A stretch of DNA of 32,253 bases. It comes from a virus. The notes beneath the pieces were generated by a model that was not told where the DNA came from, made no database searches, and saw only the letters and a program-made list of their open reading frames with translations. The position numbers and the translations under genes were made by a program. Where the stretch lies: the IMG/VR virus record IMGVR_UViG_3300033150_002129, positions 1-32,253 of that record; one strand, written 5' to 3'. Below, in pieces: positions 1 to 20,846 of the stretch; position 1 is the first letter of the stretch; each line of letters begins with the position of its first letter.

Positions 1-273
1 TCCAAATGACGACTTTTGACAATTTTCAGCGGCAACTTTTGACGCGCCGCTCCAGCATCAGCACCCGTGTCATGTCCTCCGAGCCCTTGTAACACTGCTG
101 GTATCCCTCGGCCGCCTGCTCCGGGAAGCTCGCATCCATGGACAGCATCCTCTCGGTGAACCCGGAGGGAGGCTACGCAGTAATCCAGCCGGGGGTGACC
201 ATTCTCAAGCTTTCCACCGTGGAGCGGCGCGTCAAAAGTTGCCGCTGAAAATTGTCAAAAGTCGTCATTTGGA
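1..273. repeat. 273-bp unit with perfect 53-bp inverted ends, IS-terminus-like
   Basis: Bases 1-53 are the exact reverse complement of 221-273, with about 167 bp between them. Each arm carries the direct repeat ACTTTTGAC twice, 23 bp apart (12-20 and 35-43). Multiple internal repeats of this kind are typical of IS21-family ends, but no transposase gene is present. From either strand a short coding-like reading enters the arm. The plus-strand one (from ATG 138) contains NPEGGYAVIQPGVT, which resembles the FAD-binding part of VAO/GlcD-type oxidases, so the spacer may be a fragment of a host gene. It could be a MITE, two facing IS ends around a remnant, or an assembly chimera at a contig edge. 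This stretch and the bases up to 327 hold no convincing intact gene. Confidence 0.75.
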
Positions 274-277
274 AAAG

Positions 278-311
278 TTCACTCAGTGCAAAAATATTTT
301 CACTCAGTGAA
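278..311. repeat. Two 11-bp direct repeats, each nearly palindromic, 21 bp apart
   Basis: TTCACTCAGTG occurs at 278-288 and 299-309. The second copy extends to the odd-centred palindrome TTCACTCAGTGAA. The 21-bp spacing is two helical turns, as in a protein-binding site. It lies just beyond the stop of the last cassette gene and next to the inverted-repeat unit. Function is unknown. Confidence 0.4.
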
Positions 312-327
312 ATTGCACTGTTATCAT

Positions 328-1365
328 TTAAGCAAGCTTGAGCGCTTCCAGCAAGATATCGGCGACAAATTCGGCGTTCCTATCGCTCATGCCGGGCCAG
401 AAAGGAAGGCTTAAAACTTCCGCCCCAAAACTCTCGGAAAAGGATAAATCAGCGCCATCAGGCACGTATTTTTTATAGCAATCGAACCGGCTCAAAGGCT
501 TGTAATGAATTGAGCACTCGATTCCGGTCCCGATCATGAATGCCTTTATCCGGTCGCGCTTTTCGCTTGGTACCCTGATCCAATATAGATGAGTGGTTAG
601 CACATCAGGGATCATCACATGCCGCTTGAGCTTCTCATCGTAGATCGCCCTGATCCGATCCTTGTGATCCATGATCTCGGGCAATTTTTCGAGCTGCACT
701 CTGAGTACCGCGGCTTGAAGCTCGCTCATTCTGAAATTCAAGCTGCCTGGATGCGTGACTGCATCAGGCATGTATCTTCCGTGATCTCTCATCCGGCGCA
801 ATTCTGTGCCGATATAACAGTCGACACCAATCAGTCCCCCTTCTCCAGCGGCGATATTCTTGTTGCCGTAAAAGCTCCAGACCGAGTTTTCCCTATACGC
901 GCCCGACTGAAAGCTGTGAGCCTGGTCTACCAGGACAGAATGAGGCAGGTTTTCCGGCAAATATCCTGCATACGTTGCATATATCGCCCCATCCAGATTA
1001 AGTTCTTCTGGACACAACATGATGCCTTTGTCATCCACGTCGCAGATTACGGGTTTGTTCCCCGCGGCAAGCACCGAATTGATGGTGGCGCAAAAAGTCA
1101 AATTAGGTACAGCCACAGCCCTCGATTCAGGATGCTCGGGATTGTTGAAAAGAATTTGCTGCAACAGATAAAGCCCTGCCGTAGCGCTCGAAACAGCCAC
1201 ACACTCATGTCCTTCCGGCGCGCCAAGGACATGAGCCGCCTCTTTCTCGAACGCCTCGACTTCCTCTCCCATTGAGAGGTTTTTCGAGTCGATCACCCGA
1301 GCCAGGGCCTCTTTTTCCCGATCGTCCACATACGGCACATAAAACGGCACATCCCAGCTTCTCAT
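328..1365 (-). CDS. DegT/DnrJ/EryC1-family sugar aminotransferase
   Basis: A fold-type I PLP enzyme of 345 aa, slightly shorter than the usual 370-400. Visible hallmarks are the PLP-binding aspartate in DQAH (D147), the Schiff-base lysine in FYGNKN (K169) followed by the family signature GEGG, and the early SSATAGLYL segment. Family members transfer an amino group from glutamate to a nucleotide-linked keto sugar. The natural partner here is the 4,6-dehydratase at 6896-7900, which would supply a 4-keto-6-deoxy sugar nucleotide. The ATG overlaps the stop of the sulfotransferase before it (ATGA), so it is translationally coupled and is the last gene of the operon. The substrate sugar and the amination position are inferred. 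Confidence 0.9.
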   Translation of the reverse strand: MRSWDVPFYVPYVDDREKEALARVIDSKNLSMGEEVEAFEKEAAHVLGAPEGHECVAVSSATAGLYLLQQILFNNPEHPESRAVAVPNLTFCATINSVLAAGNKPVICDVDDKGIMLCPEELNLDGAIYATYAGYLPENLPHSVLVDQAHSFQSGAYRENSVWSFYGNKNIAAGEGGLIGVDCYIGTELRRMRDHGRYMPDAVTHPGSLNFRMSELQAAVLRVQLEKLPEIMDHKDRIRAIYDEKLKRHVMIPDVLTTHLYWIRVPSEKRDRIKAFMIGTGIECSIHYKPLSRFDCYKKYVPDGADLSFSESFGAEVLSLPFWPGMSDRNAEFVADILLEALKLA

Positions 1366-2153
1366 CGGTTCTCTCCTTCCGTATATAGTTTCCGCCAGGC
1401 GCTTGATCCGGCTACATTATTCACCACTATCCGCTGCGCCGCGCCGCTGAGGTGTTTTTTCCACGCTCCCAGCACGCGGTCGGGATTTTTGATCACTGCG
1501 TGTGGATGATTGCGATGACCCTGGTGCGATCGGCTGATGAAGCGCTCCTGTTCGATCGCCCAGGGCAAATCAGCCCACTCACAAAGCTTTTTCGCCATCT
1601 CGACTGGGAATTTCACCAGCTCTTCGAACCGGACGATTGTATAGAGCTCCGGGCTCGACTCGGCCAGGGCCAGGAAATGGTCACTCCTTTGTGCCCATCG
1701 TCTTGCTGTGCCCGCTGCCGGGTAGGATTTGCCGAATTGCGTCCTCCACAGGCTGGAGATCACCGCTCTCGGATCGCGCATGATGTATATGATCTGCCCG
1801 AAATGAGCCGCCACATCAGCGACAGGCATGATTTTCGGGCTTTTGATGACCATCATCCTCGGCTGATCGGGCTGTCCGAAGTACGGCTCGCGATCGAGGT
1901 TGTGATCGCGCACGCGCCAGAATTGCTCCAGCGCGCTATAGAGCATGGCCTGTCTGACTTCTGCCCTGCTTCGCTCGACTTGCTGGATTTTGTCGATCAG
2001 GCCGTAGAATTTCAAACTGTGCGGATTTTTCTTCCGTTCGGGTTTGTCATCGAACGGCTCGAAGTGGTAGAGCACTTCGGGATGGGCGGCGAATATTTTT
2101 CCCAGCCACGAGGTGCCCGACCTGGGCATCCCTGTGATCCAGATGATTCTCAC
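1362..2153 (-). CDS. PAPS-dependent sulfotransferase (copy 2)
   Basis: Sulfotransferase of about 263 aa. The 5'-phosphosulfate loop is GMPRSGTSWLGK near the N-terminus, and the 3'-phosphate site is MRDPRAVISSLW about halfway along. Family members move sulfate from PAPS to sugars or other acceptors. I chose the GTG at 2153 because it overlaps the upstream stop (GTGA) and lies 11 nt after GGGAGG; an ATG-initiated longer form would only add a low-complexity leader. It is clearly a paralogue of the gene before it: both have P-Y-F-x-Q-P, RDPRAV, a W-rich RRW/ERW block, R-[YF]-E-[DE]-L and a matching C-terminal VAGS. No PAPS synthase is seen, so PAPS presumably comes from the host. Confidence 0.88.
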   Translation of the reverse strand: MRIIWITGMPRSGTSWLGKIFAAHPEVLYHFEPFDDKPERKKNPHSLKFYGLIDKIQQVERSRAEVRQAMLYSALEQFWRVRDHNLDREPYFGQPDQPRMMVIKSPKIMPVADVAAHFGQIIYIMRDPRAVISSLWRTQFGKSYPAAGTARRWAQRSDHFLALAESSPELYTIVRFEELVKFPVEMAKKLCEWADLPWAIEQERFISRSHQGHRNHPHAVIKNPDRVLGAWKKHLSGAAQRIVVNNVAGSSAWRKLYTEGENR

Positions 2154-2875
2154 AGCCCGTAGAGCCTCCCTGCCCTCGATCCGGCCACCGCATCCGCCAC
2201 AATTTTTTTGCCTATCTCGGACAATTCGCGTCTCCACGAGTTGAGTGTAATATCAGGATCTTTGGTGATCGCCAAGTGATGCGGATCGTGCGATGACTGG
2301 CTCGACTCGGCGAATTTCACTAGCCCATTGTCGCGCCTGAGTCCCATCCATTTGATCAGCCTCCTGATCTCCCGTGCCGTCTTGCCGGGGTTGGCCAGAT
2401 CTTCGTAGCGCACCAGGATGGCCTTTTCAGGATCTTCCTCCACCATTTCGAGATATTTTCCATTCCTTTCGGCCCAGCGCTCGGCGCTCGAGGCCATGCC
2501 GTAATGACCGGGCCGATAGTGGTTGATCAGTGAGTTCACCACCGCCCTCGGATCGCGTATCAGAACGATCAGCCGGCCATGTTTTGCGCACAGCTCCGGC
2601 TCCTGGGCCGCGTGCGAATCCTTTACAACCATGGCAAACGGGCTGCCGGGATGAGGCTGCGAAAAGTACGGTCTGCAGTCGTACTGGCGCGTTCTGTTCT
2701 GCGCCAGCAGTCTGAGATCGCGCGCGAAATGGCGCTTCTGCCCTTCGGTCAGCCTCCCCTTCGAGTTCATCCAGCAGTGCTGATGAAAAAGCACATCCGG
2801 ATGGGCCGAGAGTATTTTCCCCAGCCAGGTCGAGCCGCTACGGGCCACAAAGAGAATAAAGAAGTTGTTTACCAT
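2150..2875 (-). CDS. PAPS-dependent sulfotransferase (copy 1)
   Basis: Sulfotransferase of 241 aa. It opens directly with the PAPS loop VARSGSTWLGK, and the 3'-phosphate motif is LIRDPRAVVNSL near residue 125. The start at ATG 2875 lies inside the end of the glycosyltransferase gene (7-nt overlap ATGGTAA), which indicates coupling. Longer upstream readings in this frame are shadow sequence of the GT gene. Tandem paralogous copies with diverged middles suggest two acceptors, or two positions on one glycan. Acceptor unknown. Confidence 0.88.
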   Translation of the reverse strand: MVNNFFILFVARSGSTWLGKILSAHPDVLFHQHCWMNSKGRLTEGQKRHFARDLRLLAQNRTRQYDCRPYFSQPHPGSPFAMVVKDSHAAQEPELCAKHGRLIVLIRDPRAVVNSLINHYRPGHYGMASSAERWAERNGKYLEMVEEDPEKAILVRYEDLANPGKTAREIRRLIKWMGLRRDNGLVKFAESSQSSHDPHHLAITKDPDITLNSWRRELSEIGKKIVADAVAGSRAGRLYGL

Positions 2876-3627
2876 GCTTTTCTTTTCTCCCGAGCCAGCT
2901 TCTGCTGGAGTCCATGCTGGGCGCGGCTGATCTGCCTCGAATGCTGGCGATAAAGTATCAGGGCCTGGTCGTAGCAGCCGTATTTGATTCCGGCTTTTTT
3001 GGCCGCAAGCAGGAAGCCATAATCCACGTCGGCCATGTCCTCGGAATACTCGATCAGCCCGCAGCAGCAGGTGAGAATTTTCCGCCTGTACGCCATGGTC
3101 GGATGCCAGATGTCCTGCTGGCGCTCGAGATAATCCCATTGCGTGGGCCGCGCATGTTGGTAATGCTGATGCCTGAGATTGCGGTCCACCAGGTGCGCCC
3201 CGGACCAGAAGAGGTCGCGGTCGTGATGGGTCTCGAACCAACGGGCGATGATCGAGAGCCGGCCTGAAAGCGACACGTCATCCGAATCCTGCACCACGAT
3301 TATGTCGCCTCGAGCCCAGCGATTGCCGAAGTTCCTGGCCTTGCCGGGTCCTCCATGCTGCTGCAAAAGATAGAGCCGCGCTGAATAACCGCGCCGCTTC
3401 AGCTCATCGATTTTTCTCACCAACATTTCCGGCGTTTTGCCGTCATCAGAGGCGTCGTCCACCACCACCACTTCGTACAGATCTTTGGGCATCTCCTGCT
3501 GCGCTAGCCGCTCCAGGCATTCCTCGGTGTATACGGGCCGGTTGCGAACCGTAACGATCACACTTATCAGCGGGCGCTTGTCCGCTCCCTTTGACTGGCT
3601 TGGACCACTATCTTCAAGTTTGCTCAT
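2869..3627 (-). CDS. Family 2 glycosyltransferase
   Basis: A 252-aa GT-A fold enzyme. It begins with the nucleotide-binding strand ISVIVTVRNRP, followed by VVVVDDASDDGKT, and has the metal-binding D-x-D as VVQDSDD near residue 115. Such enzymes transfer a sugar from UDP- or GDP-sugar to a growing chain in the cytoplasm. The C-terminal 30 residues are Arg/Lys/Gln-rich and might touch membrane or nucleic acid. It sits 36 nt after the double methyltransferase and overlaps the sulfotransferase after it. Donor and acceptor cannot be read from the sequence. Confidence 0.9.
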   Translation of the reverse strand: MSKLEDSGPSQSKGADKRPLISVIVTVRNRPVYTEECLERLAQQEMPKDLYEVVVVDDASDDGKTPEMLVRKIDELKRRGYSARLYLLQQHGGPGKARNFGNRWARGDIIVVQDSDDVSLSGRLSIIARWFETHHDRDLFWSGAHLVDRNLRHQHYQHARPTQWDYLERQQDIWHPTMAYRRKILTCCCGLIEYSEDMADVDYGFLLAAKKAGIKYGCYDQALILYRQHSRQISRAQHGLQQKLAREKRKAW

Positions 3628-3648
3628 AGGATCACCTCGGGTACGGGT

Positions 3649-3664
3649 GCGGGCACGTGCCTGC
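3649..3664 (-). repeat. GC hairpin (6-4-6), gene junction
   Basis: GCGGGC-ACGT-GCCTGC with one G-T pair in the stem. It ends at the stop codon of the double methyltransferase. Loop on transcribed strand ACGT. Confidence 0.5.
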
Positions 3665-5061
3665 TAAAAAATCATGACGGCTTTCCAGCGGTCAACCATG
3701 CGTTGAAATTTGGGTCTGCCGAACAGCTTCTGGTAATCATGCCGGAAAGTGAAGTCACAGAAGCAGTCTCCCTGCACCGGCTCGATCAGCATGAGGCGCT
3801 TGGTCCGCTTTTTTAGGATGTCCGCCGTCTCTTTGATCTCTGACGGTGGCACGTGTCCCAGCACGGTGAAGGTAAAACCCAGGTCCCACGATCTGCGGCC
3901 GAGTCCGCCGTCCTTTGTCGAGCGGTTGTCGAGGTCGGAAAGTTCTCCCATGATGATTTCGATGCTGGGGTCGGCCCCGAACCTGCGGTCAGCCTCGAGC
4001 GCCAGGGCTTCGACCGGCTCGATGCCGGTGATCTTTTTCGCACCCACCCCAAGCACCCAGAAGCGGAACCAGCGGCCGATGCCGCAGCCGAGATCGAGCA
4101 CTGACGAGATCGGCTTTTCCACGTACATTACTTTTGCAAGCTCGAATACTTTTTCGGGCTCTTGCTGTACGCATTCATTGGCCAGGTTATAGGTATTGGC
4201 CGTGCGCGGTGGATAGGCGTCTATCATGCCCTGGGCCCGCCTGGCGAACATCTCGAGAATTTCCTTGCGCGATTTACGTTTTGCCATTCTTTCATTCCTC
4301 CCTTGCCGGCGCGCGCCCGGCCGGGATGCCCCGGCTGGCAGGCCCGAAGCCGGCCTTTGTGATTCTTCATGCCCAGTGGCTCGGGCCCTACCTGGCTGCC
4401 GCCTCTTGGCCGCCACCCACAGCTCTTCGCTGGTATCGATCGCGTGCCTTTTCGCCTTCTCCCTTTTGATCCGCGCGCCGTAGCGGATCATCTCGACCGA
4501 AAAGCCCGCATCTTCGATCCTCCGGCTGATGTCCCGCCCGTACATCCGGACGTGCGCAGGATCGCCGAACCTGCGACGGCGCTCGGCCGGGCCCGCGCCC
4601 GGTGCCTCGACGGTTTTTTTCTTCGACGGGTCCCAGGGGACCATGACCAGAAGAATGCCGCCCGGCTGTATTATCCGATGTAGCTCGGACAGAGCCTTCC
4701 GGTCGTCCTCCACGTGCTCAAGCACGTGTGAGCAAAGGATGAGATCAAAGCTCGAATCGGGCACGTTGACCATGTTCTCCACGTTGTTGGTGATGTCCGG
4801 CCAGCGGTCGGGATCGCGATCTAGGGTGATGTAGTTGACCTTTGGCATGGCCCGCAGTCTCTCGGCCATGGGCTCCATGTGCGCGATGTCCAAAATTCTT
4901 ATAGGGGTGGAGCCGACTTTCAGCTCATCACGCAAATAGAGCCACAGAAGCCGGTGGCGCTCCATCACTCCGCATCCAGGACAACGGGCGTTTATCCGTC
5001 CTCTATAGGAGTCGAAACTCGAAACCTTGTAATTGCAGATAGGGCATTCAATAAGTTTCAT
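3664..5061 (-). CDS. Double SAM-dependent methyltransferase, probable fusion of two genes
   Basis: One 465-aa frame holds two methyltransferases. The first has an N-terminal zinc ribbon (C6, C9, C27, C30), then an altered motif I (ILDIAHMEPM) and the class I block LILCSHVLEHVEDD. The second begins about residue 259 (MAKRKSRKEIL) and has a standard motif I, VLDLGCGIGR. Between them is a Gly/Ala/Pro/Arg-rich linker that contains a GC hairpin (4320-4335). The second domain has its own Shine-Dalgarno (GGGAGG at 4297-4302, spacing 9) and ATG at 4287, so it is probably also made alone. It may have been two coupled genes whose stop was lost. They likely methylate the sugar product; targets unknown. 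Confidence 0.85.
   Translation of the reverse strand: MKLIECPICNYKVSSFDSYRGRINARCPGCGVMERHRLLWLYLRDELKVGSTPIRILDIAHMEPMAERLRAMPKVNYITLDRDPDRWPDITNNVENMVNVPDSSFDLILCSHVLEHVEDDRKALSELHRIIQPGGILLVMVPWDPSKKKTVEAPGAGPAERRRRFGDPAHVRMYGRDISRRIEDAGFSVEMIRYGARIKREKAKRHAIDTSEELWVAAKRRQPGRARATGHEESQRPASGLPAGASRPGARRQGRNERMAKRKSRKEILEMFARRAQGMIDAYPPRTANTYNLANECVQQEPEKVFELAKVMYVEKPISSVLDLGCGIGRWFRFWVLGVGAKKITGIEPVEALALEADRRFGADPSIEIIMGELSDLDNRSTKDGGLGRRSWDLGFTFTVLGHVPPSEIKETADILKKRTKRLMLIEPVQGDCFCDFTFRHDYQKLFGRPKFQRMVDRWKAVMIF
4320..4335 (-). repeat. GC hairpin (6-4-6), in methyltransferase linker
   Basis: GCCGGG-ATGC-CCCGGC, a perfect stem. It encodes part of the linker GLPAGASRPGARR between the two domains. 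Loop on transcribed strand GCAT. Confidence 0.5.
4587..4602 (-). repeat. GC hairpin (6-4-6), inside first methyltransferase
   Basis: CCGGGC-CCGC-GCCCGG, a perfect stem. It encodes PGAGPA around residue 154, a probable surface loop. Confidence 0.5.
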
Positions 5062-5110
5062 GATTCATCCACATCGTTTTCAGGCTTGTTCCGGTACGGA
5101 GGCTCCCTCC

Positions 5111-6082
5111 TCATTTCATTATCCTCTCGATCTCGGCGATCAGCTTTTCAGGGTCGTTCCTCTCTCTCCAGTATTCACTTCCCTTCCGGTTATAGGCCGC
5201 GCCGCGGCGCTGGTTCTGCCTCACCCGCTCGACCATGCGGGCCAGCTTCTGAGGCGTCATATCGGGCATATGCTCGACGTAGGGCAGCGGGGCGAAGTTG
5301 TAGATTACCGGCCGACCGGCCATACATGCTTCCATTGGCCCCTGGGGCATTCCGTCGCTCATGACGCATCTCACGTGCAGGCTTTGCCTGGCATAGAGCT
5401 TATCCACGTCCTCCGCATCCACCCTCGCTACGTAATCGATGTTGCCGCGCGACTCGGCGCGCCGCCTGGGGTAGATCATCCAGCGCGTCTCAGGGGATAG
5501 CGCCGCGGCCCGCTTTACGATCTCCTCGCCGTAAAAACCTGACCTCGAGTCGTAGCAATAAATCCCGACGGTGAATTTTTCCGGAAGCGGCATCGGCTCG
5601 TAGCGCTTCCGGGTGGGCAGGTGCACTATCCGAACGTTCTCGATCCCGCAGGCCCGCAGCCTCTCGGCCGATGGCCCCCACTCGGCCCAGTGCTCGACGC
5701 CCTCGTTATTGAGCTTCTTTATCCTCGGATGATCTTTCAGCGATTGGCCCGCCCCGCCCAGGGCCGCTTCCAGCCACATCAAGTCGGTGCCGACCCACCA
5801 GATGACTTTCCGGCGAGCCATTTTCATCTCCGCCCAGTGGTTTTCCTCGGAATTGTTGTTGCTATACCAGCCGAGCATGATCTTGAGATCGCACTGGTGG
5901 GGCTTTCGCACCACCGCAGCGGACATCCCGCGCCTTTGCAAAAGTGCGCTGAGGTTGTCGGCGCCCCACAGGCAGCCGTGTGTCGAGATCAATATATCGT
6001 GCCTTGCCACGCCGGCCGGCCTCCTCTTCGCCTGCTCCCGCACGCGGGCCCGAATCTTGTTCCTCTCGTAGTTGGATCGCAT
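5111..6082 (-). CDS. GT4-like glycosyltransferase
   Basis: About 323 aa from ATG 6082, which follows the preceding stop by one base; GGAGG lies 11 nt upstream. The C-terminal half has the GT-B donor-site pattern MSDGMPQGPMEACMAGRPVI, including the glutamate that contacts the nucleotide sugar in GT4 enzymes. The N-terminal half (ILISTHGCLWGADNL) fits the acceptor domain but is otherwise not recognisable. The tail is Arg/Lys-rich. It lies between the nucleotidyltransferase and the methyltransferases. Linkage and acceptor unknown. Confidence 0.8.
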   Translation of the reverse strand: MRSNYERNKIRARVREQAKRRPAGVARHDILISTHGCLWGADNLSALLQRRGMSAAVVRKPHQCDLKIMLGWYSNNNSEENHWAEMKMARRKVIWWVGTDLMWLEAALGGAGQSLKDHPRIKKLNNEGVEHWAEWGPSAERLRACGIENVRIVHLPTRKRYEPMPLPEKFTVGIYCYDSRSGFYGEEIVKRAAALSPETRWMIYPRRRAESRGNIDYVARVDAEDVDKLYARQSLHVRCVMSDGMPQGPMEACMAGRPVIYNFAPLPYVEHMPDMTPQKLARMVERVRQNQRRGAAYNRKGSEYWRERNDPEKLIAEIERIMK

Positions 6083-6083
6083 T

Positions 6084-6860
6084 TCAATCAACGCCTCCGG
6101 CGGGCGGACATGTGCCCGCGGGCAGGCCCGATCCAGAGGTTGTACCGTCTTCCGCTTCGAAGCCCGCACATGCCCTGGAATAATCTTCTGGCCTGCCTAT
6201 GTCGAGCCACTCCCCATCGTGATAATAGACCGCGGTGACGTTCGATTGAACCAGATCCGGCATATCGGAACAGCCCGGAGGCAGGTGCTCCAGGGCCTCG
6301 GGGGAAATGGCGTAGATGCCCATGGCCACCGGCAGGAGCAACTCGGGTTTCTCGCGCCATCTCTTTATTATCGGCGGGTCTCCTTTGGTCACGCTCACTA
6401 TTCCATAATCTATTTTCTGGCGGCGCCTCGTCACCGCGGCCGTGACGAGCTCGGGCCTTTCGATGTGAAAATCGTGGAGCGCGCCGAAATCGAGGTCGGT
6501 GATGGTGTCCCCGTTGACGGAGATGAATGGCTCATCCAGAAGCCCGGCCCGGTGACATTTGAGGATCGGGCCGGCGGTACCCAGAGGTTCGCTCTCCTCC
6601 GAATAGAGAATCTCGACCTCCCATTTATCGCCATTCCCACAATAGGTTTTTATCAACTCCGCCTGATGTCCCACGCACACGATCACGCGCTTGAACCCGC
6701 AGGCTGATAAGCGTTCGAGCAGGATCGCCAACACCGGCCGGGCGGCCTCGTACTTTCCCACCGGCATCAAAGGCTTGGGTAGTGAGTACGTGAATGGCCG
6801 CAATCTCATGCCTTTGCCGCCCGCCAGCACTGTGCATGTGCGCGGACCCATGCCCGGACT
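6084..6860 (-). CDS. Sugar-1-phosphate nucleotidyltransferase
   Basis: A 258-aa enzyme of the RmlA/GlmU/HddC-like family. It has the signature LAGGKGMRLRP (residues 13-23), PKPLMPVG, FISVNGDT with the metal-binding Asp, and DIGRPEDY near the end. It would couple an NTP to a sugar-1-phosphate and so open the pathway to an NDP-sugar. The start at 6860 is supported by AAGGAG upstream; longer readings lack coding character. The last dozen residues (GLPAGTCPPAGG) are encoded by one of the GC hairpins and look like an added tail. GTP or UDP/dTDP specificity cannot be decided. Confidence 0.88.
   Translation of the reverse strand, partial: SPGMGPRTCTVLAGGKGMRLRPFTYSLPKPLMPVGKYEAARPVLAILLERLSACGFKRVIVCVGHQAELIKTYCGNGDKWEVEILYSEESEPLGTAGPILKCHRAGLLDEPFISVNGDTITDLDFGALHDFHIERPELVTAAVTRRRQKIDYGIVSVTKGDPPIIKRWREKPELLLPVAMGIYAISPEALEHLPPGCSDMPDLVQSNVTAVYYHDGEWLDIGRPEDYSRACAGFEAEDGTTSGSGLPAGTCPPAGGVD
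6104..6119 (-). repeat. GC hairpin (6-4-6), end of nucleotidyltransferase
   Basis: GCGGAC-ATGT-GCCCGC, one mismatch. It encodes the C-terminal AGTCPP and precedes the GGAGG of the next gene. Confidence 0.45.
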
Positions 6861-6895
6861 CATCCTCTGTCTCTCCTTTTCATCATCGGCACGAA

Positions 6896-7900
6896 TTAAA
6901 CCGCGTAATCTGTCCGCAACTTCCCCCGCTTCATCTCCTGCCGCATGTAATCCATCACGTTTTGCAGGCCGTTTTTCATGTCCACCTGGGGTTCCCACCC
7001 CAGTTTTTTGATCCTCGAGTTGTCGCAACAAAGATATTGCACCTCCGAGCCTCCGGGCCTTACCCTCAACGGATCGACCACGATGCCCGGAGAAAACGCC
7101 GTCATGCCTATGATCCTCCTCGCCAGCTCGACGATCTCATGCGTTTTACCCGATCCCACATTCACCAGCCCTGGTGGATCATCGGCCTCGAGCATCATCC
7201 GGAAAGCGCAGCAGGTATCGGTCACATAGGTGTAATCGCGCCGAGTATGCAGGTTCCCGAGCTTCACCTGATCGCCCGAGAGCGCCTGTGCGCAGATGGC
7301 CGGAATCACCGCCCGCTCGGATTGCCTCGGGCCGTAGCAATTAAAGGGTCGGATAATCGAGACGGGCAGGTTGAATGCCCTTCCATATGAGATCGCCAAC
7401 TCGTCTGCCGCAATCTTCGAGGCGGCGTAGGGAGAAGCCGCGGTGCGGGGATGATCCTCGTTCATTATATCTTCGCGCGCCCGGCCATAAACCTCGGAGG
7501 TTGAAGTCATGATCACGCGATTACAGCCGCACAGCTTTGCATTCTCCAGGACATTATAAGTTCCTTCGACATTGGTCTTGAGGTAAGCCAGCGGCGAGAT
7601 GTAGCTGTACGGGATGCCTATCAATGCAGCCAGGTGAATTATCGATTCAGCTCGGCCCATGGCATCGCGCACCGAATCGAAATCCCTTATATCTCCTCGG
7701 ATGATCTCGACTTCCTTCAACACGTACCTGGGTATCTCCGCCAACTTGCCGATTCCGCCGTCGCTTTTGTAACGCACGAAAGCGATCACCTTCCAGCCCG
7801 ACTCGACCAATTCCTTCACCAGGTGGCTCCCTATAAAGCCGGCGGCACCGGTCACGAGGCAACTTCCTTTGGCGCGTGCCGCATTATTCGATTCAATCAT
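6896..7900 (-). CDS. NAD-dependent sugar-nucleotide 4,6-dehydratase (LegB-like SDR)
   Basis: An extended short-chain dehydrogenase of about 334 aa. The Rossmann motif is G18-x2-G21-x2-G24 (TGAAGFIGSH) and the catalytic YAASK is present. The active-site strand reads TSTSEVYG: the acidic residue after the serine is the dehydratase pattern, where 4-epimerases have a small residue. Overall wording (ALIGIPYSYISP, RPFNCYGPRQSERAVIP) closely recalls LegB of the legionaminic-acid pathway and related GDP/UDP-sugar dehydratases. I chose ATG 7900 over 7912 because GGAG lies 6 nt upstream. With the aminotransferase at 328-1365 it would give a 4-amino-4,6-dideoxy sugar nucleotide. Confidence 0.88.
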   Translation of the reverse strand: MIESNNAARAKGSCLVTGAAGFIGSHLVKELVESGWKVIAFVRYKSDGGIGKLAEIPRYVLKEVEIIRGDIRDFDSVRDAMGRAESIIHLAALIGIPYSYISPLAYLKTNVEGTYNVLENAKLCGCNRVIMTSTSEVYGRAREDIMNEDHPRTAASPYAASKIAADELAISYGRAFNLPVSIIRPFNCYGPRQSERAVIPAICAQALSGDQVKLGNLHTRRDYTYVTDTCCAFRMMLEADDPPGLVNVGSGKTHEIVELARRIIGMTAFSPGIVVDPLRVRPGGSEVQYLCCDNSRIKKLGWEPQVDMKNGLQNVMDYMRQEMKRGKLRTDYAV

Positions 7901-7956
7901 CAGCTTCTCCATTCGGCTTTGTCAGCGGCGACTCGCCGCGATCCGCGTTGGTTATC

Positions 7957-8106
7957 TTATTTTCTCCGCCTTTTTTTGGAGGTCTGAATGGCGCCATGCT
8001 GCGCCAGGGCTTCTTTCTTGGTCCTGAACTTTTTGATGATCTTTCCTTTATTCGGCCCGGAGCAATGATAGGTCGCATAGCCGCCTTTCACTTTCCTAAC
8101 CGCCAT
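7957..8106 (-). CDS. Small basic protein, unknown function
   Basis: A 49-aa protein beginning MAVRKVKGGYATYHC and ending in a Lys/Arg cluster. Its ATG lies inside the end of the double glycosyltransferase gene (11-nt overlap). The pattern of a short beta-rich start (VKGGYATY), a lysine-rich middle and a short helix resembles small basic proteins seen in many phages and mobile elements, whose role is not established. Because it is so short and basic it may bind nucleic acid or act as a structural peptide. It separates the double glycosyltransferase from the sugar-nucleotide genes and is likely made by coupling. Confidence 0.6.
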   Translation of the reverse strand: MAVRKVKGGYATYHCSGPNKGKIIKKFRTKKEALAQHGAIQTSKKRRRK

Positions 8107-10075
8107 TGTCCACCTTCCTTTTTTCATTCATCTTGCGCAATTGCCCCTTTTTATACTCTTTCCGCTCAGCGCTGGTGGGCCCCAAATGCTCGAGCGGCAT
8201 GGGCAAATATACGCCTTTCCTGATGTTCATCACGGGGATCAGGTGAGCATTCTCATAGCCCACCTCCCAATAGGCGTCGGCCATGAGCTGATCGGTGCCG
8301 TAGAGCACGTCTTCCGGGTGGCCGCCCACCTTCCGGAAAGACTCCGCGCTCTCCATCCGGCACATGCCTACCGCGGTCGAGTTGCCCTCCAAAAAGTTCA
8401 GGTAATGGCCGTCCCGGGTCACCATGCTCCGGCTCACCACCTTCATCATGTCGCGCGTACCGAACGTCTCCGGGCCCCAGGCGGGATCGTAGGAGAGCAT
8501 ACCGATCAATTCGCCGCGATTTTGCAGCTCGGTATACACTTCCATCATCACGTCCAAAAAGCCGGGCGCGGGAATCACGTCGTCATCGATTTTCATGAAA
8601 TATGGCTCATCGGCGGCGGCGAACAGATCGTTGATCGCCGGCACTCCCCGGTTGTCGCATCTGGTGATCAAATCTATATCCAGGCCGCGCTTCCTTGCCA
8701 ACTCGACTTCCGCCGCCACGAACGTATGGGCCTCCTTGCATGAGTCCTGCAACAGAATCCGGTAAGTTATCGGCGTTTTTGAATCAAATAGCCTCGAGAT
8801 AATGATCGGCAGGCACTTTCTTACGCACAGCAATCTTTCATCCGGCTCGGGAATCCAACTGACAGTCCCAACTCTGATTTGAGTGCGAGCTGCTGACTTT
8901 GTGCGGCCGCGTGATCTTCCATGCGGGTTTGGATGCGGGCCCATGCCCGCATTCCTCTTGCGGATAAGGGCCTGCATATAGATGTCCCGCAATTTGATGA
9001 CTTCGGCTTCGGGTGAGCGGTGATCGAGGCAGAATTCGCGGGCGTTTTTTATCCAGCGGCGGCGCTCCTCTTCCTCTTCGAGCGCATAGAGGATGAGATC
9101 GCGCCATTGTCTGGGATTATCGTGTTGTTTGATCAGGAGGCCGGTTTGCTCATGCTTGATCGTATCGGCATATGGCCCGTAATCGGTGGCGATCGTCAAC
9201 GCGTTCATGGCCGAGTATTCCTGAAACTTTATATCGGATTTGCATTTGTTGAACACGTGCTCGCGGATGGGCGCCAGGCCGATATCGAGTGCCAGGCCGT
9301 GAAGGTGGCGGTAATACTGATCGAAGCTCACCGGCGGCTGCCAGAAAATTTGTTCGCCCTGCCACAACCTTGCCGCCAATCTGCCTAAATGTCCCATCAC
9401 CGCAGGCCGGCATATATCGGCAGATGGATCCTGGCCGGCCTCTCTGCGTTTTTTGGAGCTGCGGCCTGCGTCATGCTCAGCGCGACGATTCCATTCATCC
9501 AGTGCCAATTTCATCCCTTTCATGGCCGGCTCGACATCGCGCACGTGGGTCGAGGAGCCGGCCCAGCCCACCCGTATGTGATCCTTTTCCATCTCCGGCC
9601 AGTCGAACAGTCGCGGGTCGATGGTGTTCGGGATCACCGCGATATTGTCGTTGTATTCCGAAAGCAGTTTTTTCAACGGCTCGGTCGAGACCGTCACCAG
9701 GTCAGCGCCCTCGATGTTGGCTTTGAGGCACTCGAGCTGGAAGGGGTTGGTCCATTGCGTGAAGGGATTCTCATCCGGGGTGAGCAGCAGATAATCATCG
9801 AGGTCGAACACCAGGAGCGCGTCGGGATTGTAGTCGCGAATGTTTCGGACCGGCCCAAGAGCCTGGATGCGGCTGACGAGCACCACATCGGCCCAGCGCA
9901 AAAGCTCAGGCCCGCCGTGCTCGACGGATTCCCAGTGCTTGAAGGAGAGGACTTTGCATTCCGTCGGCTTCGGCTGCGGGCCCGTGCCTGCGAGAGCATT
10001 GAGCCACAATAAGGGTTGGCGCTGCCTGTAGAATCCGCAACCTCCGGCATCAGGCAAAAAGGCCAGCACCTTCAT
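8096..10075 (-). CDS. Two-domain glycosyltransferase (GT4-like plus GT2)
   Basis: A 659-aa protein. Residues 1-370 are GT-B/GT4-like: the start MKVLAFLPDAGGCGFYR, the middle TVSTEPLKKLLSEY and VIPNTIDP, and a donor-site stretch SDIKFQEYSAMNALTIATDYGPY. Residues 395-640 are a GT-A/GT2 domain with the metal motif KIDDDVIP and a late YGTDQLMADAYWEVGY. The linker near 372-395 (AGMGPHPNPHGRSRGR) contains a GC hairpin (8933-8952), as in the double methyltransferase. Its ATG overlaps the stop of the virion-type gene at 10072 (ATGA), which ties the sugar cassette to the phage operon. It could add two successive sugars. Confidence 0.88.
   Translation of the reverse strand: MKVLAFLPDAGGCGFYRQRQPLLWLNALAGTGPQPKPTECKVLSFKHWESVEHGGPELLRWADVVLVSRIQALGPVRNIRDYNPDALLVFDLDDYLLLTPDENPFTQWTNPFQLECLKANIEGADLVTVSTEPLKKLLSEYNDNIAVIPNTIDPRLFDWPEMEKDHIRVGWAGSSTHVRDVEPAMKGMKLALDEWNRRAEHDAGRSSKKRREAGQDPSADICRPAVMGHLGRLAARLWQGEQIFWQPPVSFDQYYRHLHGLALDIGLAPIREHVFNKCKSDIKFQEYSAMNALTIATDYGPYADTIKHEQTGLLIKQHDNPRQWRDLILYALEEEEERRRWIKNAREFCLDHRSPEAEVIKLRDIYMQALIRKRNAGMGPHPNPHGRSRGRTKSAARTQIRVGTVSWIPEPDERLLCVRKCLPIIISRLFDSKTPITYRILLQDSCKEAHTFVAAEVELARKRGLDIDLITRCDNRGVPAINDLFAAADEPYFMKIDDDVIPAPGFLDVMMEVYTELQNRGELIGMLSYDPAWGPETFGTRDMMKVVSRSMVTRDGHYLNFLEGNSTAVGMCRMESAESFRKVGGHPEDVLYGTDQLMADAYWEVGYENAHLIPVMNIRKGVYLPMPLEHLGPTSAERKEYKKGQLRKMNEKRKVDNGG
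8933..8952 (-). repeat. GC hairpin with 8-bp stem, in glycosyltransferase linker
   Basis: ATGCGGGC-CCAT-GCCCGCAT, a perfect 8-bp stem. It encodes AGMGPHP at the junction of GT4 and GT2 domains. Confidence 0.6.
9976..9991 (-). repeat. GC hairpin (6-4-6), inside GT4 domain
   Basis: GCGGGC-CCGT-GCCTGC with one G-T pair. It encodes AGTGPQ around residue 30, in an N-terminal loop. Confidence 0.45.
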
Positions 10076-10911
10076 GGTTTCACCTCTCTTGTAGGATCGT
10101 AATGGAAATCGACCAGCCGTACGTCCGGGGCATAGAGGGCTGGAGCTGCACCGGATTTCGATATCAGATAGGGCGCCAGCATTCCGCCGGCCTTCATCTT
10201 TTCATGCGCCTCATCCGTCTTCGGCAACCTGGGCTGCGCCGAACCTTTCAATGTGAGGGCGCCGGAGTCGAGCGCCGACTGCACCTGCATCAAAAAGCTA
10301 TCTCCGGAATGGTGATAGTCCTTGAAAAGTTTTTTGCAAAACGCCTTATTATTTTTGAGTTGCAGGCAGAACAGCTCGTGCAAATCGGGATCAAATATCT
10401 GGCCGAAGCCGATGCACTCGGGATCGAAATGCAGTCCCAGTATTTCGGAGTTCGCCTTGTCCCTTTTTATCCAGACCACCGGTTCGTTCCGCGAAGCCTG
10501 CACATATCTAATTTTTGCATAGGTTGGATTAGCTCCGGCGCCGCCCGAGACATAGACCTGCGTGACGTAGGCCAGACTGTTCACACCGTAATTGATTCCC
10601 AGATCCACGCCGATGCTCATGTCGCTGCCGCCGGCATCGGAAGAAGAATGCACTCTCGGATAAAAGCCGTATTCGCCGACGTTGACAAAGATGAGTACGC
10701 CGGGTATGGCGCCCGCTGCGATGGATTGCTCCTCGGTCGAGCTCTTCAAATGGGCCTGCGCCACCCAGTTCTGATAGCCTGCGCTGGCCTGGATATAATC
10801 GAGGCACTCGTCGTCCCTGTCGCGGTAATCTTTCATCAAGTCTTCGGTGATGGGCTCGCCCGCGGCGATCCGCGAATCCCCGATCTCTATCCCAGCAGGC
10901 CATGTAGCCAT
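10072..10911 (-). CDS. Probable distal tail or baseplate protein, unknown
   Basis: A 279-aa protein with no motif I recognise. It is Gly/Ser-rich with alternating beta-type stretches (VLIFVNVGEYGFYPRV, LAYVTQVYVSGGAG), as in virion structural or fibre-base proteins. It starts at ATG 10911 with GGAGG just upstream and overlaps the Cys-rich gene before it by 25 nt. Its place after the tail hub is where receptor-binding or fibre proteins usually lie. It is the last virion-type gene before the glycan cassette and is coupled to the first glycosyltransferase, so it is a candidate target of the glycosylation. Confidence 0.55.
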   Translation of the reverse strand: MATWPAGIEIGDSRIAAGEPITEDLMKDYRDRDDECLDYIQASAGYQNWVAQAHLKSSTEEQSIAAGAIPGVLIFVNVGEYGFYPRVHSSSDAGGSDMSIGVDLGINYGVNSLAYVTQVYVSGGAGANPTYAKIRYVQASRNEPVVWIKRDKANSEILGLHFDPECIGFGQIFDPDLHELFCLQLKNNKAFCKKLFKDYHHSGDSFLMQVQSALDSGALTLKGSAQPRLPKTDEAHEKMKAGGMLAPYLISKSGAAPALYAPDVRLVDFHYDPTREVKP

Positions 10912-11252
10912 TTTTTACCTCCTGCGGGTGCGCGCCCGCGGGCAGACTCGAGGCCGGCCGCTTCAATTTTTCCCGGTCCGCAGCCCGAGCCAGGCACAGT
11001 GATCTTTTTCACCGGCAGGAGCCGGGGTGCGTTGCACACGATCATCTTTTTGTCTCCACGATGCCTGCCGCGCGAGCGCTTCTCCATTCCGCCGTGATAG
11101 TTGCAATCCTTACAAAGCCCGATCGAGAGAGGTGCGCCGTTCACCGGGCAGTCCACCGCCTCGATATCCTCGATCTCGATCCCTTCCAGTCCTGTTTCAT
11201 ACTTTGTCATGTCCAAGTTTTTTGAAGCGCCCTTTTTCCAAAAAGAACGCAC
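10887..11252 (-). CDS. Small Cys-rich protein, possible zinc site
   Basis: About 121 aa from GTG 11252, which has an ideal AGGAGG (11260-11265) 7 nt upstream; no ATG start is as well placed (the next is at 11210). The core reads VDCPVNGAP, then GLCKDCNYHGGM and later IVCNAP: four cysteines and a histidine, as in a zinc ribbon. The C-terminal ESARGRAPAGG is encoded by a GC hairpin (10924-10939). It lies between tail hub and last tail gene. It could be a tail assembly factor. Function not known. Confidence 0.5.
   Translation of the reverse strand: MRSFWKKGASKNLDMTKYETGLEGIEIEDIEAVDCPVNGAPLSIGLCKDCNYHGGMEKRSRGRHRGDKKMIVCNAPRLLPVKKITVPGSGCGPGKIEAAGLESARGRAPAGGKKWLHGLLG
10924..10939 (-). repeat. 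GC hairpin (6-4-6), end of Cys-rich gene
   Basis: GCGGGT-GCGC-GCCCGC with one wobble pair. It directly precedes the AGGAGG of the gene at 10072-10911. Confidence 0.45.
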
Positions 11253-11263
11253 CCGAAAACCTC

Positions 11264-12898
11264 CTAAATGATCAAAGTGGGAGGATCGCCGTTCGGCATT
11301 AGCTCGGTGGCGGTATTGCAGATATATGCCCACTTCCGTTCCTCCTCGTCCGCATCCGCATAAGTCGGCCAGCCATTCGGGGCGATCATTCCTCCCTTGC
11401 CCTCGAGTCGGCTATCCAGCACCTCGATGTCTATCTCTCCGCGGTCCGGATCGGGACGCACGCGCACTATCTCCATCAAGTCGGCGGCCACTCCCCGCGC
11501 TCCCCGCGCGATATCGGTGAGAAAATCAAGTGTGACCGATACGATGTCGCCGGGGTCCCAGCGGAACAGGCCGAAGTCTATTCTTGCCCTGAAAGACACC
11601 GGCCCGTCGGCATAGCGCAAAAACATCCGGGTGATCAACCGCTCGACAATCGCCTCGGCCTGGAGATCGGAGTAAAGGCCGTCGGACTCAAGCTTCCACG
11701 CCTTTGATAAGCCGTGCCGATTGATCGAAGAGGCCTCGAGATCGAATCGCTGCAGCTTGTACTCGCCGTCAATCACCGACTTGTCGTATTTCACATGGGC
11801 GTTGTTCACGACTTCCTTCAGGCCGCGCGACCAGCCTGAGAAGCGGGTGAAATGAGATTCGGTGAACTCGTCTGGGTCCTCGGCGAACGGCATGTGATAC
11901 AAGACCAGGCTGATGGCGCCGTCGCCCGACACCACCGGATATGCGTTCATCACCCGGAAAATCTGCCCCTCGCTCCAGCTCTTGAAATCATCTATCGGCT
12001 CCTTGAGCACAAAACGGAGAGTGTCCGTGGGGATGAAACGGTTACGCTCGCGCTCATATTTTTCTATATCGATCAGGGATTGGTCCACCCCCAGCCCCTG
12101 GTCGGACTCCCACACATCATAATCGCCGTTGGTTCCCGCGCCGGTCGAGCACATGAGTTTCAGAAAGAGATTTACCGGATTATCTTCGATTATGATCAGT
12201 TCGCGCACCTGTGCGCCGTCGTCGTGGGTCGAGGCCGCCGAGCCTCCCGCCACGCCGTACTGGCCGCGGGCGCAGCCGGTGAAGGAATTGGCGGTGTATC
12301 CCGTCGGCACCAATATCTCGTCATCTATCAGAAGCGCATAAGTGAGGCCGTCGCCTGCGCCAGCCGGGTCGTGGAAACCTTTGTCGCCGATTATCGAGCC
12401 GTCGGTCGAGTCAACTGCAATGATCGCGTCGCCTGCGGCGATTGCGCCATCGAGATGGGTGGCACCGAAGCTCCTCATCACCTGCGCGATCTTGTAGTAG
12501 CGTAAGTCGTTGATCTTGATTTTCCACAACCCGTGATCCGACTCTTCGCAGTCCTCCACCAAGCCGGTTATGAGAGAGGTGAAATCAGTCTCGGGTATGC
12601 CCTCAAAGCCGCCGAGAAGCTGCACGTGTTCCTCCTTTTTTATGAGAGGGAGGAGCTGGTGGAAACGCTCGTCTCCGATCACGGTGACGGTGACGCCGGA
12701 CACATCCGCCCGGCCCTCATTGGGACGCACCGAGCCGGTCCAGGAGGGCACCTTTTCGATCAGGTCCCACCGATCGGGATTGTCCGGGTCCCGCCATGAA
12801 ATGAGCTCGATACCGAGATCGGTGAAATCCAGGATGAATCTCGGTACGCGCCCCCGGCGCGAAGCCGCCTCGTCAAACACATGTGACGTGCTTTTCAC
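11264..12898 (-). CDS. Tail hub / baseplate-type protein
   Basis: A 544-aa protein in the position where siphoviruses encode the tail hub (Tal/gp27-like) after tape measure and distal tail protein. The N-terminal 130 residues (ILDFTDLGIELISW, ADVSGVTVTVIGDE) are beta-rich. The centre holds ILVPTGYTANSFTGCARGQYG, a wording common in phage tail proteins, and the C-terminal part is a second beta domain (FRWDPGDIVSVTLDF, DIEVLDSRLE). Starts at a GTG overlapping the previous stop (GTGA) with GAGGG upstream. The hub assignment rests on order and composition rather than a diagnostic motif. Confidence 0.6.
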   Translation of the reverse strand: MKSTSHVFDEAASRRGRVPRFILDFTDLGIELISWRDPDNPDRWDLIEKVPSWTGSVRPNEGRADVSGVTVTVIGDERFHQLLPLIKKEEHVQLLGGFEGIPETDFTSLITGLVEDCEESDHGLWKIKINDLRYYKIAQVMRSFGATHLDGAIAAGDAIIAVDSTDGSIIGDKGFHDPAGAGDGLTYALLIDDEILVPTGYTANSFTGCARGQYGVAGGSAASTHDDGAQVRELIIIEDNPVNLFLKLMCSTGAGTNGDYDVWESDQGLGVDQSLIDIEKYERERNRFIPTDTLRFVLKEPIDDFKSWSEGQIFRVMNAYPVVSGDGAISLVLYHMPFAEDPDEFTESHFTRFSGWSRGLKEVVNNAHVKYDKSVIDGEYKLQRFDLEASSINRHGLSKAWKLESDGLYSDLQAEAIVERLITRMFLRYADGPVSFRARIDFGLFRWDPGDIVSVTLDFLTDIARGARGVAADLMEIVRVRPDPDRGEIDIEVLDSRLEGKGGMIAPNGWPTYADADEEERKWAYICNTATELMPNGDPPTLII

Positions 12899-13272
12899 TT
12901 TTCACCCTCTGGATTGAACAATCCGCCTTTGCCGAAATATTCAGGGTTGTCCATTAAGGTGTGCAAAAGTATTTCACTAAAACTCTGCACATCCTTCTCT
13001 CCGATCCCCTTCAAACCTATTTCAAAGCACAAGGCATGGATGATTTCATGGAGTAGAGTCTTGCGATAACGCGTATTCGATAAATCATTTGCAATGAAAA
13101 TTCTTGTGGCTTTGTAGTATATACAACCATTTTCATTTAACTCGAGTCCGGGTATGCCTGTACCGGCCTGGACAATTTCCACCTCATAGCTCTGTGACCC
13201 GATCTTGATTTCTGGAAGTCGTTTGCTATCGGCGCGGACTGCTGTTTTTGATTTCATCATCATTCCCTCCAT
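12895..13272 (-). CDS. Small HExxH metalloprotein
   Basis: About 125 aa (shorter if it starts at the third or fourth Met; all follow one GGAGGG). It has LLHEIIHALCFEIG with H75-E76-x2-H79 and a candidate third zinc ligand in VQSFSE (E100). This is a gluzincin-type pattern seen in small phage metalloproteins and, more distantly, in ImmA/IrrE-like peptidases. It lies between two tail genes in a locally AT-richer stretch, which suggests a later insertion. It may process a tail protein, act on the host cell surface, or be a moron. The substrate is unknown. Confidence 0.65.
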   Translation of the reverse strand: MEGMMMKSKTAVRADSKRLPEIKIGSQSYEVEIVQAGTGIPGLELNENGCIYYKATRIFIANDLSNTRYRKTLLHEIIHALCFEIGLKGIGEKDVQSFSEILLHTLMDNPEYFGKGGLFNPEGEK

Positions 13273-13284
13273 TCGGCTCCATGA

Positions 13285-13300
13285 CTAGGTATATGCCTAG
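13285..13300 (-). repeat. 16-bp near-palindrome over the distal tail gene stop
   Basis: CTAGG-TATATG-CCTAG; the TAG stop of the gene at 13297-14082 is in one arm. Position parallels the palindrome at the tail tube stop. Confidence 0.35.
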
Positions 13301-14082
13301 CGATCCTGCAGGTCTTCCAGGTCAATCGGTCCATCATTGTTCCCCGCTTGCAATAATTTGATCCTATAGGTAAAGTTTTTGAACAGTGGGAGCCGCTCGC
13401 CCACGGCTTCGGCCTTGTTCTCGAGCATCACCTTCACCCACCGATGCATCCCCCACGCTCCCTGGTGCTGCCACCACCTGAAAGCTCCGCCTTTCAGCGC
13501 CCATTGCAGAAAGGTCCAGAAATCGTCGAGGTGAGAAAAATTGGGAAAGCGAACCTCGGCCTCCCACTTCCGGGTGAAGGCCATGGGCATCATCGAACGG
13601 CGCCGGCCGGAGTAGCTTCGATTGTCCGTCCGTTCGTTGAAGTCCGGCGTGAAGGCGGGCGAGCGCACCGGCTCGAGAAAATCGAAGTACATTATGTCAG
13701 GCACGGGAATGTCACCCAGGTAGATGAACGCGCCCGAGCGCGGCAAGGTGGTGAACCCAAGCGTCGGGAAAATCGAGCTTGCGCAGGCCGCGCCCAGGGC
13801 GAAGATCGCCGAAGCGCTGGGAGAGATCATCTGGAAGTAATACCTTTCGAGATCACCGTCGCGCCACACGGCGTAATTCTCCGAGCCGGCAGCTTCCATC
13901 GCCGCCTTGATCTCGGCGGCCAGCTCGAGGTCAGAATATGTCCCCATCGTCACGGCAGTGGTGAGGAGTAGCCCGGGGCGCTCATACCAGCATAGTCTCC
14001 GATTGTCGCCTCCGATCACAAAGGCATCCTCCGGATCGCGCCATCCCACGCGGGGCCTTTTTATGAGAGGTTCAGTGGCCAT
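13297..14082 (-). CDS. Probable distal tail protein
   Basis: A 261-aa protein directly after the tape measure gene and before the hub, where Dit-type or minor tail proteins occur. It is beta-rich with many aromatic residues, for example SGAFIYLGDIPVPDIMYFDF and RWWQHQGAWGMHRWVKV. GGGGGTGG precedes the ATG. A 16-bp near-palindrome (13285-13300) spans its stop codon. No diagnostic motif seen; the call is positional. Confidence 0.5.
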   Translation of the reverse strand: MATEPLIKRPRVGWRDPEDAFVIGGDNRRLCWYERPGLLLTTAVTMGTYSDLELAAEIKAAMEAAGSENYAVWRDGDLERYYFQMISPSASAIFALGAACASSIFPTLGFTTLPRSGAFIYLGDIPVPDIMYFDFLEPVRSPAFTPDFNERTDNRSYSGRRRSMMPMAFTRKWEAEVRFPNFSHLDDFWTFLQWALKGGAFRWWQHQGAWGMHRWVKVMLENKAEAVGERLPLFKNFTYRIKLLQAGNNDGPIDLEDLQDR

Positions 14083-14134
14083 GTGGCCACCCCCATTTAT
14101 GATATATATTCATCATATCCATCCGGGTGCGCCC

Positions 14135-14150
14135 GCGGGGGCGTCCCCGC
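14135..14150 (-). repeat. GC hairpin (6-4-6), after tape measure gene
   Basis: GCGGGG-GCGT-CCCCGC, a perfect stem that begins at the last base of the tape measure stop codon. Confidence 0.5.
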
Positions 14151-16021: not shown

Positions 16022-16121
16022 GGTATGAGTTCCTATGCCCGCAAGTGGAAATCGCGGTTGATTTACAGATGTGGCCCGCGCCGGGCATCTTTTTCATACT
16101 CTTCAAACTTTCAAATCCTTC

Positions 16122-16463
16122 TTACAGATTCCAAATAGAGACGATTCTCTCGTACGCCTCCATCACCTCTTCGCGGCTCACGTCCCTCCAGGCCTTCCTG
16201 AGCTTCCAGGCGTGCCGCAGATTTTTCACAACAGCCACTTTCACGAGTTCGATGGTGAGCCAGTAAACCATCACCGGATCTTCGCTGTTGCGGATGCGAT
16301 CGATTAGCGGCAGAAGCCTGCCAAAACGCTTGAGGTTCAGCGGCTGTACTTCCAGAAGATGCGGGCCGATCTTCACGCGGTCCGTCCGCAAAGCCTCCGG
16401 AGGCTCCGCCGGATTCCACTGCTCGGGCATCACCACGTTGGCTTCATCAGGTATGTTTTCCAT
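16122..16463 (-). CDS. Tail assembly chaperone-position protein
   Basis: About 113 aa from ATG 16463 with AAGGAG upstream. It lies between a larger unknown and the tape measure gene, where many siphoviruses encode the tail assembly chaperones. It is helical, with VQPLNLKRFGRLLPLID and a Lys/Arg-rich end, which resembles several tail-chaperone families but has no signature I can name. The frame stays open upstream to 16508, overlapping the previous gene by 62 nt. Confidence 0.5.
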   Translation of the reverse strand: MENIPDEANVVMPEQWNPAEPPEALRTDRVKIGPHLLEVQPLNLKRFGRLLPLIDRIRNSEDPVMVYWLTIELVKVAVVKNLRHAWKLRKAWRDVSREEVMEAYERIVSIWNL

Positions 16464-17130: not shown

Positions 17131-17151
17131 ATCTCGCGTCTATTTCTGCCT

Positions 17152-17167
17152 GGGGCCGCATGGCCCC
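17152..17167 (-). repeat. GC hairpin (6-4-6), after tail tube gene
   Basis: GGGGCC-GCAT-GGCCCC, a perfect stem in the 56-nt gap between tail tube and the next gene. Confidence 0.5.
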
Positions 17168-17178
17168 GCGGCTCCGTC

Positions 17179-17195
17179 GGCAGCTACTAGCTGCC
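17179..17195 (-). repeat. 17-bp palindrome over the tail tube stop codons
   Basis: Arms of 8 bp (GGCAGCTA/TAGCTGCC) around a single base; it contains both stop codons. Could form a short hairpin at the 3' end of a highly expressed gene. Confidence 0.5.
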
Positions 17196-17711: not shown

Positions 17712-17713
17712 GA

Positions 17714-19228: not shown

Positions 19229-19231
19229 TTT

Positions 19232-20160: not shown

Positions 20161-20171
20161 TTCCTTCCTCC

Positions 20172-20187
20172 GCCGGGGTATCCCGGC
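20172..20187 (-). repeat. GC hairpin (6-4-6), before small virion gene
   Basis: GCCGGG-GTAT-CCCGGC, a perfect stem, directly followed on the transcribed strand by GGAGG of the gene at 19858-20160. Confidence 0.5.
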
Positions 20188-20208
20188 CGGCGGATCCGAT
20201 GTCCGCCC

Positions 20209-20772: not shown

Positions 20773-20802
20773 TTATTCACCTTTACGCTCAGGAGGGGGG
20801 AT

Positions 20803-20828: not shown

Positions 20829-20846
20829 GTTTCCCCTCTGAGACTC

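Follow-up and report, generated by a model that had tools for sequence, protein, structure and literature searches.

Gene Content of the Cassette

The window, the whole stretch of DNA analyzed here, is a single viral record of 32,253 bases. Ten genes between positions 328 and 10075, all on the minus strand, were assigned to a glycan cassette by profile matches and motif positions. The enzyme classes and motifs that had been read from the sequence alone were all recovered with Pfam, NCBIfam and motif positions. The cassette begins with a fusion of GT1-type and GT2-type glycosyltransferases (8096-10075; phrog_7162, 7e-34; PF00534, 1.2e-10; weak GT2 match, 2.8e-4). Between this gene and the dehydratase gene lies a basic ORF of 49 aa (7957-8106; MAVRKVKGGYATYHC...), which weakly matches phrog_11531 (E 0.014) and was absent from the gene list of the sequence-only reading. 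Four true starts are internal to the listed ORFs: those of the nucleotidyltransferase (~6863), the 5111-6082 gene (~6082), and the two sulfotransferases ST2 (~2875) and ST1 (~2153).

Three enzymes are likely to supply the sugar. The LegB-like NAD-dependent NDP-sugar 4,6-dehydratase (6896-7912; PF16363 (GDP_Man_Dehyd), 2.2e-69) contains TGAAGFIG, TSTSEVYG at 136, and YAASK at 162. The sugar-1-phosphate nucleotidyltransferase (6084-6863; PF00483 (NTP_transferase), 1.3e-32) contains LAGGKGMRLRP; its closest PDB matches are of the mannose-1-P guanylyl, UTP-glucose and MurU types, from which the nucleotide base and the sugar substrate are not predictable. The DegT/DnrJ/EryC1 PLP sugar aminotransferase (328-1365; PF01041, 4.9e-51) contains K169 and GEGG and is PseC/LegC-like, below the NCBIfam cut-offs. 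By the known chemistry of these families, such a set makes an NDP-4-amino-4,6-dideoxy sugar. All three enzymes are present with their catalytic motifs, and the earlier assignment of the set to an NDP-4-amino-4,6-dideoxyhexose-type product is probably right. The legionaminic acid pathway likewise combines a LegB-like dehydratase with a DegT aminotransferase (LegC). In contrast to that pathway, the cassette proteins score below the cut-offs (350 of 475 bits for TIGR04180 and 101 of 420 bits for TIGR04181), no NulO synthase was found among the cassette genes with Pfam and NCBIfam, and there is no hydrolase or CMP-transferase.

The remaining enzymes would assemble and modify the glycan. A GT2-family glycosyltransferase with a QDSDD motif is encoded at 2869-3627 (PF00535 (Glycos_transf_2), 3.4e-23). 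The protein at 5111-6082 is a probable divergent GT-B glycosyltransferase (PF00534, E 0.011; PF13692, E 0.021), and its predicted structure (pLDDT 39) is uninformative on the fold. Of the four glycosyltransferase domains claimed previously, the GT2, the GT1 and the weak GT2 domains stand, while the fourth, at 5111-6082, corresponds to a weak GT1 match. The claim of two methyltransferase domains agrees with the two-domain SAM methyltransferase at 3664-5061, where PF08241, PF13489 and PF13649 match across both halves. This protein has zinc-ribbon-like cysteines at its N-terminus.

Two sulfotransferases had also been claimed, and both are confirmed. ST1 (1362-2153; PF13469, 8.8e-22; PF00685, 1.7e-10) has the CurM sulfotransferase as its nearest solved structure (3.5e-10). 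ST2 (2150-2875; PF13469, 1.2e-13) can be aligned to ST1, and the two are paralogues with 35% identity. The PAPS-site motifs, RSGTSW or RSGSTW and RDPRAVxxS (RSGTSW and RDPRAVISS in ST1), are kept in both, so that each combines the Sulfotransfer_3 profile with the motifs binding the 5'- and 3'-phosphates of PAPS. With tblastn, neither sequence had a match in 50,697 phage records.

Operon Structure

Five overlaps join the cassette genes to one another or to the gene upstream; elsewhere the gaps are 49 nt or shorter. The start of the glycosyltransferase fusion, which has its own RBS, lies inside the stop of the preceding late gene (10072-10911, minus strand) in an ATGA (10072/10075), as the sequence-only reading had noticed. 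The fusion overlaps the 49-aa ORF by 11 nt. The ATG of ST2 overlaps the stop of the GT2 gene (7 nt), the GTG start of ST1 overlaps the stop of ST2 (4 nt), and ST1 and DegT overlap by 4 nt (ATGA). The gap at 6082/6084 is 1 nt, and the other non-overlapping junctions measure 32-49 nt. Thus, the coupling said to continue to DegT describes the operon as a whole, though some junctions lack it. The region has about as many promoter-like and terminator-like hits as expected from shuffled sequence; on the coding strand of 1-12000, terminator-like hits are few, and the total does not clearly exceed that in shuffled sequence. Taken together with the overlaps from the late gene through the first glycosyltransferase, which bear out the idea of a late operon running on into a glycan cassette, the gene arrangement indicates that the late operon of a Mu-like transposable phage ends with the cassette.

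The late gene upstream of the cassette probably encodes a tail-tip or fibre protein. Its earlier description as a tail protein fits its late-gene position, but homology does not back it: the best match is phrog_5081, a family of unknown function (E 0.005), there is no Pfam match, and the structure prediction has a pLDDT of 36.

The profile matches of ST1 and ST2 include tyrosylprotein and polyketide sulfotransferases. The sulfated group therefore need not be a sugar, and the targets of the two enzymes might be protein tyrosines or small molecules, with no relation to the neighbouring glycan genes. This is very improbable, as translational overlaps tie the sulfotransferases to glycan genes on either side (GT2 and DegT), and two paralogues have been retained.

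A Near-Identical Mu-Like Phage

A search of viral contigs with the terminase identified one contig, G001 (IMGVR_UViG_3300033153_016005), which is 99.7% identical to window 11253-31212. Its early region encodes MuA, MuB, Gam, GemA, a DNA methylase and a repressor. The Mu-type early genes match phrog_310 (6e-47), phrog_296 (7.5e-26), PF07352 (8.6e-17) and PF06252 (3.9e-13), and MuA stands with MuB, Gam and GemA in the early operon. Because G001 is nearly identical to the window, the phage of the window is also considered to be Mu-like. A MazG-like protein, an N6/N4 DNA methylase and a DUF5131 protein are encoded near MuA/MuB in the early region of G001 (4494-15755).

The structural genes of the window, on the minus strand, include those for the terminase large subunit (26009-27433; phrog_38, 2e-84; 100% identical in G001), an SU10-type major capsid protein (20847-22205; PF17236, 3.5e-43), a tape measure protein (14150-16021; phrog_3779, 1.6e-15), and a tail/baseplate-like protein (11264-12898; phrog_2885, 1.8e-5), the last gene common to G001. 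Judged by its genes, this transposable phage is Mu-like, and it combines siphovirus-type tail genes with an SU10-type capsid protein. Its size is estimated at ~42 kb from G001 and the missing 11 kb. A Laminin-G/ConA-like lectin domain protein (19232-19963) is encoded among the head-neck genes, and the tail module holds a low-GC (43%) gene for an SprT/M78-like metallopeptidase (12895-13272).

The Mu-like phages B3, D3112-type and Microcystis phage Mae-JY22 share MuB, Gam and GemA with this phage, and their MuA proteins are ~28-32% identical to that of G001. The SU10-type capsid protein and the glycan cassette in the right arm distinguish the phage described here from them. Distant homologues of the 11264-12898 protein are encoded downstream of tape-measure-like proteins in three bacterial contigs. 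Relatives of this protein were found in four of 398 genomes of one phylum, in phage tail context, and the three contigs read that hold them contain no relatives of the cassette proteins.

Linkage of the Cassette to the Phage

The last tail gene in common is followed by just 11 nt in G001, which ends at window 11253. This contig does not reach the cassette, and the linkage therefore rests on one assembly and the gene overlaps. Searches of viral contigs with the terminase, the major capsid protein, MuA, the glycosyltransferase fusion, the dehydratase, the 10072-10911 protein, the sulfotransferase alignment and the junction yielded only G001 and one other relative, whose terminase is 27% identical. 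The exact junction pattern at 10.07 kb was present in no other viral contig searched. The right arm may vary between near-identical phages, with its boundary at the end of G001.

Both ends of the window have unusual structure. The last 984 bases match the left end of G001 in inverted orientation, which implies at least one misjoin or rearrangement in the contig. This segment (31213-32253) corresponds to the phage left end, with the repressor and early promoter region, and is joined beside the start of a lipoprotein gene via tandem TCTRTTCGGY-type repeats. It represents either a misassembly or a rearrangement such as a product of self-transposition. The join near 31212 is 20 kb away from the cassette.

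At the other end, the region after the last gene, DegT, is the presumed right end of the phage (274-327, unstranded). It contains two TTCACTCAGTG repeats 21 bp apart (278 and 299), which we infer to be candidate transposase sites. The pair was not found at the end of G001. In the genome scan it was observed at 20 Bradyrhizobium loci and one Dactylosporangium locus, and it is thus not specific to the phage; it may be the operator of a regulator rather than a transposase site. Further outward, a perfect inverted repeat of 54 nt (1-54 and 220-273) encloses 165 nt. The interior of this 1-273 repeat resembles, by eye, a fragment of a bacterial oxidase gene. The segment may be host DNA or the ends of an IS or MITE, and the first 330 bases of the window had no plasmid match.

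These observations bear on the possibility that the cassette is host DNA, either because the phage right end lies before or within it or because the contig is chimeric, with a host glycan cluster flanking the insertion. Mu-like phages insert at nearly any site, G001 leaves the cassette uncovered, the contig that carries the cassette is misjoined or rearranged near 31212, and the right end of the phage is a presumed one. However, the first glycosyltransferase starts within the preceding late gene and overlaps the small ORF. This chain of overlaps also argues against the insertion boundary at about 10.07 kb that was raised with the original proposal. The codon usage of the pooled cassette resembles that of the pooled late genes (correlation 0.95). 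Among the cassette genes, DegT (GC 51%, correlation 0.69) and ST1 (0.67) have the poorest fit to the phage. Pfam found no IS or integrase gene inside the cassette, and the operon is tight up to the intergenic region with the paired repeats. It is unlikely that the assembly was joined wrongly between ~10.9 and 11.25 kb, and host origin as a whole is quite improbable.

The cassette would thus occupy the right arm, beside the presumed end of the phage, by analogy with Mu, whose right arm is variable. The Mu right arm carries the tail-fibre genes and mom, a DNA modification gene. The Mu-like phage type and this placement were missed by the sequence-only reading.

Possible Functions of the Cassette

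The placement at the position of mom recalls another activity, the hypermodification of DNA bases. The addition of sugars and sulfate to modified phage bases, with glycosyltransferases and sulfotransferases, has been proposed for some phages (Iyer 2013, as presented in PMC10829341). Neither the cassette nor the ten scanned early proteins of G001 include a thymidylate-synthase-like, TET/JBP or hydroxymethylase enzyme. Base modification is highly unlikely because such an entry enzyme is lacking among the scanned early genes, and the nucleotide-sugar pathway and the two methyltransferase domains suit a glycan better.

If the product is a glycan, its acceptor may be a virion protein or the host surface. 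On the Kyte-Doolittle scale, every 19-mer of the cassette proteins stays at or below 1.5. Pfam, NCBIfam and phrog profiles detected no initiating transferase, flippase, polymerase, ligase or oligosaccharyltransferase in the scanned cassette genes. In the absence of a GtrA match and of membrane segments, the cassette does not resemble a serotype-converting (gtr) cluster; one GT2 matches phrog_841 weakly (E 0.002). A virion protein is the most economical target since no membrane segment or gene for export, polymerisation or ligation was found, but host machinery could supply the lipid-linked steps.

The alternative is that the cassette remodels LPS, capsule or flagellin during infection or lysogeny through host lipid carriers and exporters, leading to exclusion of other phages or to lysogenic conversion. 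Typical decorations of surfaces include 4-amino-6-deoxy sugars, methylation and sulfation, and O-antigen modification genes are common in temperate phages. A bacterial parallel is seen in Desulfolutivibrio plasmid p1 (17340-21478), where DegT, methyltransferase, sulfotransferase and WbqC genes stand in a row. Such remodelling is nevertheless rather unlikely, as the cassette has no GtrA-type flippase, membrane transferase, polymerase or ligase and lies at the end of a late (lytic) operon with no clear promoter of its own.

We tentatively favor the glycosylation of a virion protein in the cytoplasm over remodelling of the host surface, at slightly less than even likelihood. The nucleotidyltransferase would activate a sugar-1-phosphate, the LegB-like dehydratase would form a 4-keto-6-deoxy intermediate, and the DegT enzyme would aminate it to the NDP-4-amino-4,6-dideoxy sugar. 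In the cytoplasm, the three soluble glycosyltransferase proteins would then assemble a short glycan directly on a virion protein; the most likely acceptor would be a tail-tip protein, for example that of 10072-10911. The double methyltransferase and the two sulfotransferases, with PAPS from the host, would cap the glycan. The outcome would be a coat, charged and methylated, that is produced alongside the virion parts. The more specific proposal that a temperate Mu-like phage makes a sulfated, methylated amino-glycan for its tail tip, as a right-arm module swapped among near-identical phages, is unlikely. Mycobacteriophages use glycosyltransferases of their own to glycosylate capsid and tail-tube proteins (Freeman 2023, as described in PMC12363180 and PMC12619734), and flagellin islands make comparable modified 4-amino-6-deoxy glycans (PMC3927599).

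Comparison with Known Systems

In Che8, Corndog and Myrna, phage-encoded glycosyltransferases decorate structural proteins, according to the accounts of Freeman et al. (2023), and the glycosyltransferases here are also encoded by the phage. In contrast to those mycobacteriophages, the phage here is Mu-like and has a sugar-nucleotide route, methylation and two sulfotransferases, and its decoration is predicted from the genes.

Every enzyme type of the cassette has been met in phages before; a compact set with two sulfotransferases is unusual. Sulfotransferase genes have been published for phages and viromes (PMC10580990, PMC10829341, PMC12285232). According to published reports, viral genomes with these genes sometimes also carry sugar-nucleotide genes, and the role of sulfotransferases and sugar enzymes listed as auxiliary phage genes was called unclear in PMC10580990. 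Synechococcus phage S-SKS1 has the annotated sulfotransferase SWZG_00288 (Sulfotransfer_3; 203666-204496) and nucleotide-sugar genes elsewhere in its genome, including an epimerase (33993-34886). In S-SKS1, S-SRM01 and marine OM43-phage MVGs, sulfotransferases are single genes of large phages, away from sugar genes, whereas paralogous sulfotransferases lie inside one glycan operon here. In the marine single-cell virus MH319749.1, a sulfotransferase-like stretch, a DegT gene and a LegB-like gene are dispersed (58029, 108417 and 117568). As isolated cyanophages and viromes carry sulfotransferases, sulfation in phages is not new in kind, and the earlier remark that no phage set with sulfation was known was too strong. 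The novelty lies in a compact, late operon that includes sulfation, carried by a small transposable phage; no such operon was found elsewhere in the searches here.

The viosamine flagellin island of Pseudomonas syringae is comparable to the cassette: it encodes the synthesis of a modified 4-amino-4,6-dideoxy sugar and the attachment of this sugar to a protein. Unlike the phage cassette, it is chromosomal and flagellar, and we know of no sulfotransferase in it.

The operon links two sulfotransferases to a full sugar route behind tail genes and thereby points to a testable function, a charged glycan on the virion or the host surface. If it is on virions, it would be, to our knowledge, the first sulfated phage glycoprotein.
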